DNA from: Neocallimastix lanati (nom. inval.)
Lineage: Eukaryota > Neocallimastigomycota > Neocallimastigomycetes > Neocallimastigales > Neocallimastigaceae
Length of the DNA stretch: 42,500 nt
Direction: 5' to 3'
Assembly (NCBI GenBank): GCA_016946835.1
Contig: JACVTC010000059.1
Span: forward strand, 210,001-252,500
A program made the translations under genes and the position numbers. Shown here one piece after another: positions 140-32,907 of this stretch (its first letter is position 1; each line of letters opens with the position of its first letter). The notes under the pieces are model-generated. The model was not told where the DNA came from. It was given only the letters and a program-made list of their open reading frames with translations, and ran no database searches.

Positions 140-2245
140 AAGCCATTCTGGATGTCCAAATTCATTACCAATAAAGTTTAAATAGCCTTCACCAGCAAGA
201 GAATGTGTTAATAATCTAATCATTTTATGAAGTGCTATACCACGATCAATAACAGGAGTTAATTCAGATAATTCAGACATGTTTGTATACATTTCTTTAT
301 CCATTAACCAGAATGCAAGAGTTTTATCTCCAACTAAAGCTTGATCATGACTTTCAGCATAAGCAATCGTTTTTTCCTATATTATATTTTATAAATACAT
401 ATTAATAAATATAATATTTTATAATGATTGATTTAAAAAAATAAATTTATATATAAAAATTAATAATTATTAATATATATATATATATATGAGCAAAATG
501 AATCAAATAATCAAATAAAATATAAAAAATAAACAAATAAAAAAAAAAAAAAATTACCATATAACGTCTATTAGTTAAAGTCCAACAAATATTTCCAATA
601 TCCCAATCATCATCTTTAACTTCCTTTAAAATTTTAATCCACATATCTGGTACAGCCATTGATAATCTATAATCAAAACCAATACCACCTTCAGATACTG
701 GACGACATAATGTTGGCATACCAGAAACATCTTCAGCAATAGTAACAGCGCTTGGATTAATAGAATGAATTAGATAGTTAGCCTTTCATCAATAGAATAT
801 TTATATATATATATATATGTTATCATATAAAAATAAATATTATTTTAAATTAATTTAATTATTGATAAAATAAAGAATAAATAAAATTTTATTTTTTATT
901 TTAATATATATAATTTAAAACAATCACAAATATAAAATAAAATATGTATATATATAATACAATGGTAAAAATATATATTTATTAAATAAATATAATTAAT
1001 TTTTATATTAAATGGATTAGAATTTGTATTTATAATAATTTATAAATATAATATATTTATATGTATAATAAATAATATCTATCTTACAAGCATTAAATAA
1101 ACAATAGCTTCTAAGTCGTTACTATCATTAAAGTAATCATTATAATTTCCATTAAAACCGACACCAATACCATGGTGCTTGTACATCATACTAGTGACTC
1201 CATCGAAACGGAATCCATCAAAGTGATAAATATCCATCCAAAAACGAATGTTAGATAATAAGAATCTTAAAGTTTCATAATTACCATAATTGAATAATCT
1301 ACTATCCCATAAATCATGATGACCTCTTCCACCACTATGGAAGTATTGATGATCTATTAATTTATTAAATTTATATACAGGTAATATATTCATTAAATAA
1401 TAATAATAAAAAATCTTAGAATCAATTCTGATAAATAATAATTACAAATTATATTTTTATTCAAATATAATTAATAAATAAATATATAAATAGAAAAATA
1501 GAAAAATAAATAGAAAAAATGAAAAATAAATAAAAAAATAGAAAAATATGTAAATAAATAAAAATAAATACCAGTTCCATCAAATTCATTTAAACCATCT
1601 AAAACATTGCTACATGCATGAGAATGAACAACATCAAGTAAAACATAAATACCCATACCATGGGCGGTATCAATTAATTCCATTAAATCTTCAGGTGTAC
1701 CATATCTACTTGATGCAGCAAAGAAACTGGTAACTTGATAACCAAAACTGGCATAATATGGATGTTCCATAATAGCCATAAGTTGAATAGTATTGTAACC
1801 AAGATATTTTATTCTTGGAAGAATATTTTTAGTAAATTCCTTGTAAGTAGCAATCTTGCATTCACTTGACGCAATACCAACTTTTAAAAATTTTATTTAA
1901 GATAATTTATTTATTTTAATATCATCATTTTTTCATATTTTTTATTAATTATGTATATATTTATATATATTTGTTTTTTTTTATATATTATTTATAAATA
2001 ATAAAATATATAATTAATTACCATGTGCTTCATAAATTTTTAAACCAATTGGCTTTGGAGGAGCCTTATTCTTAAAAACATATTTCTGTGGGGGATTCCA
2101 GAAAATTGCTATATTATTTTAAATATTAATAATAATATTAATAATAAAATAATATTTTTTATATTCTGTTAATCATTATTGTATTGTTAAATCATTACCA
2201 TCATAAACAGGACTCTCTTTTACATTAAATAATTTGAAAACAAAC

Positions 2246-6340: not shown

Positions 6341-6466
6341 AATAAAACATTAAATTCCATTTGACAAAAAATATAGAAATATAATAAAACATTAAATTCC
6401 ATTTGACAAAAAATATAGAAATATAATAAAACATTAAATTCCATTTGACAAAAAATATAGAAATAT
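6341..6466. repeat. 42-bp direct tandem repeat, three perfect copies
   Basis: Copies start at 6341, 6383 and 6425 with no differences visible between them. The unit contains CATTAAATTCCATTTGACAA. There are no unique spacers between units, so this is a minisatellite and not a CRISPR array. Perfect identity suggests recent expansion. Confidence 0.9.
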
Positions 6467-6935
6467 AATAAACTATACTAAAATAAAAATTTATTAGGTT
6501 ATAATTTTTTATTTGGGAAAAATGACATACCTCACGAATTATTTAATTCTAATATATAAATTTATATAATATATTATGCACTATTATAAGTCTTAATATA
6601 AATTATTTTATTATATTAAAACATAATAATTCTTCTTAAGCTAAATGAATACTTCTCATTAGTTTAATTTTATTCTATTGATAATTCATTATTTGTTTTT
6701 ATACATCTCACACATGAAAATAAAAATAATTTTATAGTGTTTTTCCACCATAAAGACTCCTATATTAATAAGATTTAATATTTTTTTTTTAATTTTTTCA
6801 TATATAAATATATTTTTATTAATAGTAATTTTTTATATACAGGTAATTAAAATACTATATTTACATACATATATTTATCAAAAATTTTATAAGTAGAGTT
6901 TTAATTTAATATATTTAATAATTATAAATTTATTT

Positions 6936-7140: not shown

Positions 7141-10100
7141 TTAAATATTTAAATTATTTAAAAACGATCCTATTCTCTTAAGCAAAGATCTTTTTTGTAT
7201 TTCGCCATTTTTATAATTATCATTATCATCAGTATATTCTCTTTTATTTGTATTATCGATTTCATTGGTATTATCATTAGCTTCGTTATTATCAATTTCT
7301 TTATAATTGTCTTCTTTATTTTTATTATCAGTTTCATTATTATTAATATTTGATTTATTTGTTTCAGTGCTCTCGCCATTTTCATTACCTTGTTCTTCAT
7401 CTTTACTATTGTTATCTTTTTCACTAATTTCTTTATCTTTATTATTATTTTCTTTTTCATCAGTTTCTTTTTCTTTATTTATATCATCTTCATTTTCATA
7501 ATTTGATATATCATCATCTTCATCAATGTATATTGTTTCATAAACTACTTCGCAGTCACAATATTTTACTTCACAACAAGATTCATCACCTTCAATACTT
7601 GTTTCAATTGGTGGACTAAACTAAAATATATATATATATATATTAATTTATATTATATTATATTATTATTATTACTATTATATAAAAAATATATTATATA
7701 TCAAAATTTGTTATGGGAAAATGTTATTATTATTATTTTTAATTTTTATTTATATTTTAATAATGCATACAGGATGAAAAGATAAATAACGAATAAGGAA
7801 ATTTTCACTATTTTTAGAATCATGATATATTTTAAAGCTTCTTAATAAGTCTTCTTTTGAAGCTTCTCTATCAAATTCTTTTTTAATTGTTGTCCAAGAA
7901 TTCTATAAATATTATTTTTATTTTAATATTAATAATCAATAATATTTATATATATATACATAAATTTTCTTATTGATAAATATTTATAGAATTTGAATCT
8001 TTAATGTTACCATTGAAAGATTTTCATCATCTATAGTAACTGTATTTATTATGTTATTAGATGAATCTAATAACTCTATTGTCCAATGAGTATGTGACGT
8101 CTGATTAAAATAGTAGTATTAATAACATATATATATATATATATATTTATGAAAATAATAAATAATCAAATTAATATTTTTTTAAAAAAAAATATTATTA
8201 TTATTTCTCTTTTTCATTTTTTTAAAAAATTTTTAAAAAATATATACCAAAACTTCCATTTCAATTAAAGTTGGCGAAAAATAATTTTCAGGTGCTTTGA
8301 AACTAAGAAAACCTCCAGGTCTAATATCATATGCTAATATTCTATTTGGTTGATATAAAATGTTTTCTACATTTTCAGAAACATCTTCCCAATATATTTG
8401 TTGATTTTCATCAAATACTTTAATCATACTTAATAATATTTCACATTCATATTTAATATTTTCATTAGATAGAGGAGTATTGGCGTCTTCATACTTTATT
8501 TTATTTGTATCATATTATATTATATTATATTATAAATATAAAAATATTTATATATTTAAATATATTATATTTATTTTTTTTTTTTTTATAATTTTTTCAT
8601 TTGATTAATTCTATACAAATACATATGTATATAACCAGATATCTTACAGATGCGACAAAAAAGTTTTTAATACTTAATTCTTGATATGGATCCTTATAGT
8701 TCATAAATGAAAATCTATTTAAATTACAGTTTTCTAAAATATTATTCATATCAATATGATATTTATTCCATTCACCCTATCGGTTTTTAATTTTTTTTAT
8801 CATGAATTTTATATATACATTATTTTTATTTTATTTTAATTTTTATTTTTATCTTTATTTTTATTTTTTATTTATTATTTATTATTTATTATTTATTATT
8901 TATTATTTATTATTTATTATTTATTATTTATTATTTATTATTTATTATTTATTATTTATTATTATTTTTCTAATGTTTATATTCACATCTTTTAGAGGAG
9001 TATAATCACCCAAATAAAATGCATATTCACCACAACTATCAGTTGATACTAAAAAACCCATATTAAGGTCAGTTTCCTTAAAAAGTAATTTTAATAAAAT
9101 TTAATATATTAATATATATATATATATTACTATTATTATTAAATTAAATTTCAATAAATTACTTTTATTTCAAATTCACAATATTCATTATAATATGGTA
9201 TGTCTGGTTCATAATGAATACTTAATGCGGAATATTGATAAATTTTTTCAATATAAACATGGTCATCTATATTTTCAATATCAGATATTCCCCATGACCA
9301 ACTTGAAAATTCACTACTTATTAAATTCGTAATTACATTTATTTGAGAATTATTTTTTAATTTTATTTTTTTAAATCTAATTACAAGACTATCAAGGTTT
9401 TTTATAGCCTATTATTCATTACAGTTTATACAATTTATATTATTAAAAAATATATTATGAAATTGAAATAAAAATAATATTCTTTAATGAATTATTTTAA
9501 TTTCATATTATTGATTATATATATATAATTATTCTAACAATATTCATACAATTCCATTAAACTTAGAACATGATGGTAGAGTATATATTTTTGATATCCA
9601 TTCCTAATATTTTAATTTTATTAATATTAATTATTAACTGAATCTTTTTTTTTTATTAATTAATTAATTATTTATTTATTTATTTATTTATTTAATTCAA
9701 TAAATATTTATTTTAAAATTTTATGATGAATGAGATTCTAACATTTTGGTTTGTTGAAAAAGCATCTAAAGTAGTGAAATTTATTGAATCATCATTGGTA
9801 TTTATTAACAGTATTTGACCATTTCCTTTCTATTATAGAATAAAATTAAGTAAATAAAGTTTTATTATATTATAATATATTACTATTAATTTTATTATAG
9901 GAAGTGAAAGTATTTAACATTTAAGCATTAATATAAAATAAATAAAACCTCAATATAATATTCTAATTCTATAGTATTAAATTGGGTAAAATCGATTGTA
10001 CTAGTTATTTTATATAAGGCAAAAGTCTTTTCGAAATTTAAATATAAATAATTTCCTTCAATCTCTTTTTTATTAAGTTCTGGAGATCCAGAATCTTTTG

Positions 10101-10206
10101 CGAATGAATTAAATACTTCATTTCTAAGAAGAACTATTTGATTTGCATATCCATTAAATACAAAAAATGAGAATAATATGATTAAATAATGGATTAATCG
10201 ACTCAT
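7141..10206 (-). CDS. Secreted protein with three tandem beta-rich (CBM-like) domains and an acidic/Asn-rich tail
   Basis: No family was recognised. Ten exons join in frame, all at phase 0: 10206-9949, 9829-9743, 9603-9550, 9408-9163, 9076-8987, 8776-8648, 8493-8248, 8100-8011, 7902-7771 and 7620-7141, giving 603 aa. Residues 1-21 form a signal peptide (hydrophobic run LIILFSFFVF, cut near GYA/NQ). Residues ~22-444 form three repeats. Each has an N-part ending in an alternating strand (IELEYYIE, YCEFEIK, LIEMEVL), a 29-30 residue middle encoded by its own exon, and a C-part with W then L..F.I....L.I..L.F. The pattern suggests a beta-sandwich, perhaps carbohydrate-binding; that is inference. 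Residues 445-603 begin with a cysteine cluster (CCEVKYCDCE), continue as a D/E/K/N-rich low-complexity tail, and end with a basic stretch (KRSLLKRIGSFLNNLNI). No transmembrane segment follows the signal. It diverges from branching enzyme copy 2 with 2.6 kb between. The first donor (GTTTTA) is weak. Confidence 0.85.
8862..8965. repeat. 7-bp tandem repeat (TTATTTA)n inside an intron
   Basis: About 13 units of a heptanucleotide fill most of intron 5 of the secreted-protein gene. It is a simple-sequence expansion with no coding role; the hydrophobic open frame across it is an artefact of composition. Confidence 0.8.
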
Positions 10207-12818: not shown

Positions 12819-17295
<4,477 letters not shown>

Positions 17296-18255: not shown

Positions 18256-19947
18256 ATGAGACCATTAACTGAAGAAGAAACAAAGGGTCCGTAAATTAAA
18301 TAATAGTTTTAGTAAACATTTTTAAATAAAAAATAATGATTTGGAAAAAAAGAAATTATTTTTTATAAAAAGTTCATTGAATTGATTTAAAATAAAAGAA
18401 AATGTAAAATAATTTATTATTATACATATATGATAAATTATTTTATTGAAATTGGACTAGTTGAATTGACTTACAGAAAAAATAAAAATTAAATAAAATG
18501 AAAGTTTTATTAATAAAATTATATACATTAAGAAAAATACACAAATACGAAATCATTAAAAATTATAAATGAGATTTATACAATTATATTAAGATTTTAT
18601 ATATATATGTATATATGTACACATTCGTTCTAATATTTTTATTTTATAATTTAATATCATTATTAAATTTATACGTATATATCAAATTAATTATTCAATT
18701 ATACAGTATTTTTCCAAAAATTAGCTCAATAGTAAGTTTTAAAAATAATCATAAAGTGATTTATAAAATTTTATTTAATGGATTTGAAAAATTAAAAAAT
18801 AATAATAATAATATTAATATTAATAATATTAATAAATCAATAAATAAATTATATTTCTTTATTATTAATTAATATGTAGTATTGGTAGAAATATTGTTCA
18901 CTTAATTAACAGACCAGATGATACTTACTGCTTCAGACTTCACAATAACAGAGTTTACTATGTTAGGTAAAAAATGATATCTGTATATAAAGAAATAATT
19001 ATTAGAATAAAATATTGAAATATTATGTGTTCATAATTATTTATTTTAATAATAATAAAAAATAAAATATCTTTTTTTTTAAAAAAAAAAAAAAAATTCT
19101 TTATTAAAGTGAAAAAATTATGAAAAAAGCAACATGTATTGGTAGAGATCAATTATTAAGTCTTGGTGTTTGTTTTGGTAAATTTACAAAAACTGGAAAA
19201 TTCAGATTACATATTACCGCTTTAGATTATTTAGCTCAATATGCAAAAGTAAATTTCTTTTAAATTTTTATTTTTATTTTATTTTAAATTTTATTTTATT
19301 GTATATATATATTTTATATATTATATATTTTTTTATTTTATCTATGTTTTTTTTTTTTTATTTTAAATATAAATATTTTAAAATATATATGGTTAAATTT
19401 TAAATTTTCAGATATATATATTTTTACAATTATTTTAAAATTACTTTTATTAATTTTTACTTTTAAAAAAAAAAATTTTTTAAAAAAATATATTACTATT
19501 GTATTACTATATTAATTAAATTTTTAGTATAAAATTTGGGTAAAACCAAATGGTGAAATGCCATTTATGTATGGTAATCATGTTTTAAAGGCTCATCTTG
19601 GTCGTATTACCGAAGATACTCCAGAGCACCAAGGTGCTATTATTTATTCAATGAATGATATTCCATTAGGTTTTGGTGTAACTGCACGTTCCACTTCAGA
19701 TTGTAGAAAATTAGATCCTACTGGCATTGTTGTATTCCATCAAGCAGATATTGGTGAATACTTAAGAGGAGAAGGTAAGAAAATAAAAAAAAATTCTTTT
19801 TATTATAATTTTAAATAATAATATTTATATAAATAACCAAATTAATAGTATTGCAAATTATATTAACAGTAAAAATATTTATTATTATTATTATTATTAT
19901 ATAATATTTTTTAATTAATAATTGAAACTACAGAAACTCTTCTTTAA
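18256..19947 (+). CDS. NIP7: 60S ribosome subunit biogenesis protein NIP7
   Basis: Small RNA-binding factor (N-terminal domain plus C-terminal PUA) needed for 27S/ITS2-stage pre-rRNA processing and 60S assembly in the nucleolus. Six exons join to 180 aa, matching the 180-181 aa of human and yeast NIP7: 18256-18286, 18707-18731, 18880-18966, 19110-19248, 19528-19774 and 19934-19947. Family marks: [10 protein letters not shown] at the start, [44 protein letters not shown] (the yeast form of this motif), [12 protein letters not shown], and [16 protein letters not shown] at the end. The second exon is only 25 nt and the last coding exon only 14 nt; both are required to recover the conserved first 30 residues and the C-terminus. 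The first donor reads GTCCGT, which is unusual, but any other choice breaks the frame. It converges with NSA1. Confidence 0.96.
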
Positions 19948-31932: not shown

Positions 31933-32907
31933 ATCTTATAGGAAGCAGCTAAATATGGTAATACCTCCGTATTACGTCTTCTTTTAGAACATGATGTTGA
32001 TGTTAATGCTACTGAAGGTGTTAATGATGAAGATAATTTAACTGCTCTTGAAAGTGCTATTGTTGAACTCAACTATGACTGTGTTGAATTATTATTAAAT
32101 AAAGGAGCAAAATTAACTGTTTCTTCAGGTCAATTATTATCAACTCCAGTTGAATTGGCTGCTAAGATTGGTGACAAGAGGTATATAAAAAGTATATTTG
32201 AATTATATTAATATATATATATATTTTTTTTTAAATATATTAATTTTTTTTTATTAATAATATAATAAAATAAAATAAAATAAATATATTTAAATTTTTT
32301 TTTTTTTTTTTTTTAAATAATATATATATTTCTTGTTAAATTTAAATAAAATAAAATAAAATAAAAAAAAAAAAAAAAAAAAAAAAAAATTAAAAAGATT
32401 ATTTGAATTAATACTTAAATACAAGCCAAAGGTTTCCAATGCTCTTTTACAAACTTGTATTAAAATGAAGCGTGGTAGTATTACTAAGTTAATCAAGGAT
32501 TACAGTAAGGAACAAGACAATAATGAAATTGAAATTGATGAAGAATTAGATAAAACAATTAATGATCTCTGTACCGAAATGAAAAATATTGAAATTGAAT
32601 CCGTTAAGTATTGTAATAATTGTAAGGAAATCTTTGATTTAACTGGTGCTAAGGCAAATCGTTGTTCTAGATGTAAAAAGGTAAAAAATTGAAAAAAAAA
32701 AAAAAAAAGTATTTATATTAATTCAATAATAAAAATAATGATAGTATATAAATTTATAAAGAATTCAAATTTATTATATTAAATAATTTAACCTTATTAT
32801 ATAAAAATCTATTAAACTAATAATTATATAAAATAAAGGTTTACTATTGTTGCAGAGATTGTCAAGTAAAGGACTGGAAAACTCATAAAATAACTTGCCA
32901 TGCTTAA
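29859..32907 (+). CDS. TPR - ankyrin - MYND zinc finger protein
   Basis: Probable scaffold or adaptor, with three protein-interaction modules and no enzyme domain. Eight exons join to 508 aa: 29859-29996, 30157-30300, 30503-30703, 31067-31308, 31536-31746, 31942-32180, 32398-32680 and 32839-32907. Residues ~18-130 hold three tetratricopeptide repeats (GCSQFREKNYTEAYNCFTKA; RSICNYKLSKYDSTLNDSKA; AQLALKQWDDAIETINKGLE, ending IDPKN) of the kind found in chaperone cofactors. Residues ~165-430 hold ankyrin-like units (NALHVCAVSG, DNNGLTPINLA, AAKYGNTSVLRLLLEHDVDV, TPVELAAKIGDK). The C-terminus (~464-505) is a MYND finger with C-x2-C, C-x2-C, YCC-x2-CQ, W-x2-H and a final C, so its zinc ligands look complete. 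The MYND finger is split by the last intron. The start ATG sits just after a T-rich stretch. Intron 3 contains a long (AAT)n array. Confidence 0.9.
30910..31036. repeat. Compound (AAT)n/(ACT)n microsatellite in intron 3 of the TPR-ankyrin-MYND gene
   Basis: AAT units, then nine or so ACT units (about 30981-31007), then AAT again. It lies inside the intron between 30704 and 31066. The open frame through it is an artefact. Confidence 0.9.
31890..31924. repeat. Poly-T tract in intron 5 of the TPR-ankyrin-MYND gene
   Basis: About 35 T bases directly upstream of acceptor TTATAG/GAA at 31941. It acts in effect as a very long polypyrimidine tract. Confidence 0.8.

Follow-up and report, generated by a model that had tools for sequence, protein, structure and literature searches.

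What kind of protein is encoded by an intron-rich, minus-strand gene of Neocallimastix lanati, and do the three repeats within it descend from one module? We analysed a window of 42,500 nucleotides (the whole stretch, contig JACVTC010000059.1, positions 210,001 to 252,500) together with its genome of 199 Mb in 762 contigs. An earlier note, made from the DNA letters alone, had described here a secreted protein of no nameable family, lying between two glycogen-branching genes in a probable gut fungus. The GC content of the window, 16.0%, is within the range of 16-22% given for anaerobic fungi in PMC12341934, and the probable gut-fungus origin agrees with this low GC and with the fungal dockerin-type repeats of the genome.

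The neighbours are as the note had read them, since fragments on both sides of the gene (window 1474-1896, minus strand, E 1.6e-49; window 14142-14468, plus strand, E 7.7e-50) match 1,4-alpha-glucan-branching enzymes in a PDB search. Such enzymes act on alpha-glucan and would be uninformative on the ligand of the protein between them; a glycogen-linked role, to which position is the sole pointer, was not adopted. Other genes of the window carry, by Pfam, a UPF0113 PUA domain and ankyrin repeats (window 19528-19815 and 31942-32208).

A ten-exon gene

When joined, the ten exons of Table 1 (window 10206..7141) form a single open frame of 603 codons and a stop, interrupted by nine introns that are all GT..AG and all phase 0, so that the gene proposed earlier could be rebuilt in full. 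The introns measure 86-210 nt and contain 3-14 in-frame stops each, and GC separates exons (24%, range 0.215-0.311) from introns (8%, range 0.057-0.118). With an open ten-exon frame, stop-bearing introns and this GC split, the map reads as coherent. Several splice donors are weak and distant from GTAAGT, the extreme case being intron 1 (GTTTTATT), and no second copy of the gene was found in a genome search with residues 1-488, in which the ten strong rows are its own exons. Both points would suit a decaying relic gene or a wrong exon map, which we consider very improbable in view of ten exons free of any frame break, the clean GC separation, and a family profile that spans the two splice junctions inside repeat 2 (see below).

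Table 1 Features of the triple-module gene; positions refer to the window.
Feature	Position	Strand	Content or basis
Predicted signal peptide, residues 1-21, exon 1 start	10144..10206	-	Hydrophobic N terminus
Exon 1, 258 nt	9949..10206	-	Predicted signal peptide, followed by the N-terminal half of repeat 1
Exon 2, 87 nt	9743..9829	-	Repeat 1, bounded by both shared internal introns
Exon 3, 54 nt	9550..9603	-	Repeat 1; 3' intron without counterpart in the other repeats
Exon 4, 246 nt	9163..9408	-	Final strands of repeat 1, then the N-terminal half of repeat 2 (W170, W172, Y192)
Exon 5, 90 nt	8987..9076	-	Repeat 2
Exon 6, 129 nt	8648..8776	-	C part of repeat 2, carrying R266
Exon 7, 246 nt	8248..8493	-	Linker, then N half of repeat 3
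Exon 8, 90 nt	8011..8100	-	Repeat 3
Exon 9, 132 nt	7771..7902	-	C part of repeat 3
Exon 10, 480 nt including stop	7141..7620	-	Four-Cys segment, then Asp/Glu/Asn-rich tail with three KR sites
Repeat 2, residues 158-288, crossing two introns	8648..9336	-	CBM29-like; aromatic triad and R112 equivalent retained

Among titles and opening lines of abstracts in the CBM29, anaerobic-fungus and NCP1 literature, no description of this gene was found. Two tandem arrays were seen at the locus: intron 5, the longest (210 nt), consists mostly of about 22 copies of a 7-bp ATTATTT unit (window 8819-8963), and downstream of the stop codon lies a perfect 42-bp repeat in 3.1 copies (window 6341-6472).

A CBM29-like middle repeat

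Repeat 1 is taken here as residues 22-157, repeat 2 as 158-288 and repeat 3 as 302-444. Pfam assigned no family to residues 1-488, giving only unrelated matches below threshold (DUF2695, E 0.24; VacA, E 0.12), and NCBIfam likewise gave no family match. Searched against the genome, residues 1-488 returned, besides the exons of the gene itself, four further rows, weak ones (E 0.02-7), located in two long open frames; in each of these frames the C-terminal part of a GH10 domain precedes three W-x-W modules and Cys-rich repeats. Repeat 2 alone returned nine rows, namely its three own exons and six others spread over three contigs, and all six of the latter, weak as they are (E 0.013-2.5), are CBM29-like modules. 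One such xylanase module finds the CBM29 of Piromyces NCP1 in the PDB at E 1.3e-5, and a profile of eight genomic CBM29-like modules finds 1gwk at about 1e-33. The genomic modules are thus CBM29-like, and repeat 2 is a relative of those modules.

Two profiles were built from 30 and 33 CBM29-like rows (the 33 rows being 32 distinct sequences), with the window sequence excluded. Repeat 2 scores 33.6 bits with the first and 35.7 bits with the second, the best of 900 shuffles reaching 10.8 and 13.1 bits, respectively, and its match covers columns 8-131 of 133. In hhalign repeat 2 obtains 95.6% (E 1.2e-8), which none of 150 shuffles reaches, and 94.8% against the eight-module set. Its identity to the xylanase modules is 17-21%, and phmmer with repeat 2 alone gave no CBM29 match in the PDB; the assignment runs via the genomic CBM29-like profile, which itself matches 1gwk. 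By sequence comparison, then, repeat 2 is a CBM29-like module, and the profile HMM search proposed in the earlier note came out empty with Pfam and NCBIfam and positive with profiles of the genomic modules.

Repeats 1 and 3 at the intron register

Placed freely on the same two profiles, repeat 3 scores 11.8 and 12.0 bits and repeat 1 scores 8.9 and 9.2 bits; a single shuffle lies above repeat 1 with the 30-row profile, and a single one above repeats 1 and 3 with the 33-row profile. In hhalign they obtain 8% (repeat 1) and 3% (repeat 3), values reached by 1 and 2 of 150 shuffles, respectively. Pairwise identities between the repeats are 15/126, 18/130 and 17/129 (12-14%). Unless anchored at the introns, the comparison supports repeat 2 only. 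As genome queries, repeat 1 by itself and repeat 3 extended by the Cys segment each found themselves and weak rows only; four of the latter (L058, E 0.058; L059, L060 and L063, E 2.4-6.5) were set aside as chance after inspection of their frames by eye.

We then forced repeats 1 and 3 to the intron register of repeat 2 and scored three segments against shuffles of their own composition. The anchored z is 10.2 for repeat 2, 6.4 for repeat 3 and 2.1 for repeat 1, and with an alternative background 10.6, 8.1 and 1.8. As controls, 233 overlapping stretches from 12 other frames of the window gave a mean of 0.04, a standard deviation of 0.89 and a maximum of 2.49, 5 of the 233 exceeding repeat 1. 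Raw scores of these stretches (maximum 32.4, against 17.2 for repeat 3) are not a fair null, as the stretches differ in composition. When the register was allowed to shift in steps of 2 between -24 and +24, the peak lay at the intron register for both repeat 2 and repeat 3 (reached by 0 of 300 shuffles in either case). Repeat 1 peaked at +4 columns with z 3.2 and 1 of 300 shuffles, a value set against the shuffle null only. The misfit of repeat 1 lies in its N half, where 467 of 600 shuffles do as well or better on the CBM29-like profile; its two later segments fit better (3 and 24 of 600).

Thus repeat 3 appears to join the CBM29-like set once anchored at the introns, and the membership of repeat 1 is borderline. 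The earlier suggestion of a new family without relatives is not supported, given that repeat 2 is CBM29-like by genome rows, profiles and hhalign, and that repeat 3 does likewise once set to the intron register.

Recurrent intron positions

On the CBM29-like profile the introns of repeat 2 fall at columns 62 and 92, and in one of the placements the first intron of repeat 3 is at column 62 as well. The repeats were also aligned with the CBM29-like set by MAFFT, with introns ignored, under four settings that yield three distinct results (--auto returned the L-INS-i columns). With L-INS-i, introns 4 and 7 both stand at column 77, introns 5 and 8 at column 114, and introns 6 and 9 at column 158, this last match being partly trivial because the repeats were cut near there; in repeat 1, intron 1 stands at column 79 and intron 2 at column 115. 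Introns 4 and 7, the first internal ones of repeats 2 and 3, share a column under all four settings, and intron 1 is 0-2 columns from intron 4 in every one. Introns 5 and 8, the second internal ones, coincide in two of the four settings and are otherwise 8 columns apart, while intron 2 is at most one column from intron 5 in two settings and 4 columns away in two. When the three repeats are aligned alone, one of two settings leaves repeat 2 out of line.

If introns are placed at random on the L-INS-i alignment, the two internal introns of repeat 2 share their columns with those of repeat 3 at P 8e-5 and come within 2 columns of them at P 0.002; for agreement of all three repeats within 2 columns, P is 1.5e-5. 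On this favourable alignment the recurrence exceeds chance, as the earlier note had supposed.

The exon triplets listed there, 246/90/129 and 246/90/132 nt, are exact as sizes, and their equal first members are not a homologous match. The third intron of repeat 1 is at column 137, and a counterpart at 158 is absent; residue 134, with which exon 4 begins, is at column 138, so that exon 4 encodes the final strands of repeat 1, from residue 134 to around 157. Exon 4 (residues 134-215) therefore starts within repeat 1 and exon 7 past repeat 2; as the two hold different parts, their common length of 246 nt is coincidental, and the homologous exons are the 87/90/90 nt set. There is no intron at the boundary of repeats 1 and 2, and only repeat 3 has phase-0 introns on both sides. 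An intragenic triplication with the introns in place is supported by these data, most weakly for repeat 1, but a three-exon unit duplicated twice is an overstatement, because repeat 1 shares two introns rather than three and no intron separates it from repeat 2.

The same data could be read to mean that only repeat 2 is CBM29-like, that repeats 1 and 3 are unrelated to it, and that the intron spacing reflects luck or a preference for strand ends. The near-shuffle level of both repeats in unanchored searches, the low identity between repeats and the dependence of the second shared intron on the MAFFT setting fit such a reading, whereas the anchored score of repeat 3 (z 6.4-8.1), the fact that its register peaks precisely at the introns and the low probability of the coincidence argue against it; it is least countered for repeat 1, whose free-register value comes without protein controls. 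We judge it unlikely as a whole, and a common origin of the repeats appears firm for 2 and 3 and probable for 1.

Predicted binding site and secretion

In PMC9079177 and PMC9063844 the ligand contacts of CBM29-2 are given as W24, W26, Y46, K74, E78, D83 (E83 is also printed), R112 and Q116. W170, W172, Y192 and R266 of repeat 2 are the equivalents of W24, W26, Y46 and R112. Opposite K74, E78, D83, R112 and Q116 the residues of repeat 2 are G, S, E, R and M, that is, the arginine is kept, an acid stands at position 83, and G, S and M replace K74, E78 and Q116; the xylanase modules compared vary too at K74 and E78. At the aromatic platform positions W24/W26/Y46, repeat 1 has D, G and F and repeat 3 has V, E and G, so the platform is not retained in either. 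The most economical reading would be that the middle module alone has a working site.

Windows of 17 residues with hydropathy above 1.6 start only at residues 1, 4 and 5, and by its predicted signal peptide the protein is probably secreted. The extracellular, perhaps glycan-binding character proposed earlier can be kept at that strength, as probably secreted and perhaps glycan-binding. The segment encoded by exon 10 (159 residues) contains 31 N, 27 E and 20 D and has a net charge of -28. Four cysteines precede the tail. Near the C terminus are KR dipeptides at residues 570, 587 and 592 (window 7141-7300), which may be Kex2-type cleavage sites and could then release short peptides. No fungal dockerin (Pfam CBM_10) was found in residues 1-488, and residues 489-603 hold no cysteine, the last one being Cys467.

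It is possible, if rather doubtful, that plant polysaccharide binding has been lost and that this branch of the CBM29 lineage now serves as a fungal wall or surface adhesin, or as a structural spacer, with an acidic tail. The loss of the W-W platform in two of three modules and of the K74, E78 and Q116 equivalents in repeat 2, the acidity of the tail, and the dockerin result, whereas the scanned xylanase has CBM_10 repeats, would all be compatible with such a change. Against it, the three aromatics and the arginine persist in repeat 2, and their retention despite low identity to the xylanase modules suggests selection on this site.

Related modules in the genome and in known systems

The three contigs giving the non-self matches of repeat 2 carry GH10 xylanases with three tandem modules each of the same family: L013, in which Pfam finds GH10 and three CBM_10 stretches, and L012 and L031, assigned as GH10 xylanases by resemblance to L013. 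Their modules differ from ours in being joined to GH10 and free of introns, and in L013 by the additional CBM_10 dockerin-type repeats. A genome search with a xylanase module gave 32 listed rows, of which 31 reach E 0.0013 or better. The matched stretch is free of stops in 31 rows and contains a TGA in one, and none looks intron-split, a count biased towards unsplit modules because the genome was searched exon by exon, so that intron-split ones score low and can be missed. In bacterial and archaeal genomes one xylanase module used as query, which reaches close relatives only, gave 47 pattern matches and none confirmed.

Other CBM29-like loci were noted along the way. An NCP1-like gene with two CBM29 modules (L051 1501-1845, G000:C412:339744-340088) has an in-frame stop at the Trp24 position of the second module, which could be a relic, an error or a true truncation. 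Two genes about 13 kb apart (G000:C747:703886-705709 and 717831-719216) give four and three module rows; one module pair is 99% identical, and the second gene reads as a GH10 xylanase. A 934-residue open frame (L049, G000:C152:81795-83666) has four modules that are distant relatives of CBM29, together with linkers rich in Thr and a C terminus rich in Cys, and open frames of 2671 and 1204 residues (G000:C532:133233-135002 and 172654-174819) have at least three and four CBM29-like modules, respectively. A partial match with three stops (G000:C235:187033-187224, E 0.024) may be chance or an intron-split relative.

Compared with the CBM29 of Piromyces equi NCP1 (PDB 1gwk, 1gwl, 1gwm and others), the likeness of repeat 2 extends over its whole length, via the genomic modules, and to the equivalents of W24, W26, Y46 and R112; NCP1 is also multi-modular, and a catalytic domain was not found in the present protein. 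Repeat 2 is nonetheless far diverged, with no CBM29 match in the PDB by its sequence alone, and lacks the K74, E78 and Q116 equivalents, and the present protein differs in having three modules, two without the W-W platform, an acidic tail and an intron-interrupted gene. Dictyostelium CBM8 and the MtCBM of Meiothermus MtGlu5 are beta-sandwiches whose aromatic triad aligns with that of CBM29-2, according to PMC9079177 and PMC9063844. The CBM8 entry 7t7y is far more distant from the CBM29-like profile (E 0.32), and the MtCBM entry 7vt8 is absent among the 20 PDB matches listed for it.

Discussion

We read this gene as encoding a divergent, intron-bearing CBM29-like triple module, a variant within a kind already known. 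In the explanation we favour with moderate confidence, a gene single in the genome of an anaerobic gut fungus would encode a protein that is secreted and apparently not catalytic, in which three CBM29-like modules with a beta-sandwich fold are followed by an acidic, Asn-rich tail. These modules would derive by tandem duplication from one ancestral module that already had two phase-0 introns, the first following the residue that aligns with K68 of CBM29-2 (the end of 'FDMK') and the second about 30 codons further on. Like CBM29-2, the middle module would most likely use its W-W-Y platform to bind a plant polysaccharide with beta-1,4 linkages, of cellulose or glucomannan type, as single chains, and modules 1 and 3, their platform lost, would probably be spacers or binders of something else.

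Going further, the gene may belong to an old CBM29 lineage with introns, set apart from the 33 CBM29-like modules gathered from this genome, all of them unsplit; the lineage may have kept two intron positions over two internal duplications as identity fell to about 13%, and its protein would be a non-catalytic, single-site binder with two structural modules. Taken whole, with its age, kept introns, single site and gene structure older than the expansion, this reading is tentative and less likely than not, and the introns may be either gained or ancestral.

The CBM29 family first came to light in a single Piromyces species. As of 2022, CAZy recorded no other microbial protein homologous to CBM29, according to PMC9063844, and one gut-fungal genome now adds many CBM29-like module rows and a hidden split member. 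Intron positions here indicate common origin where sequence nearly fails, and may thus aid annotation of AT-rich gut-fungal secretomes. The gene also allows a simple test of whether a single intact module suffices to bind fibre when its neighbours are degenerate. If the old lineage is real, it could preserve the gene structure that the family behind the enzyme-linked modules had before its expansion.
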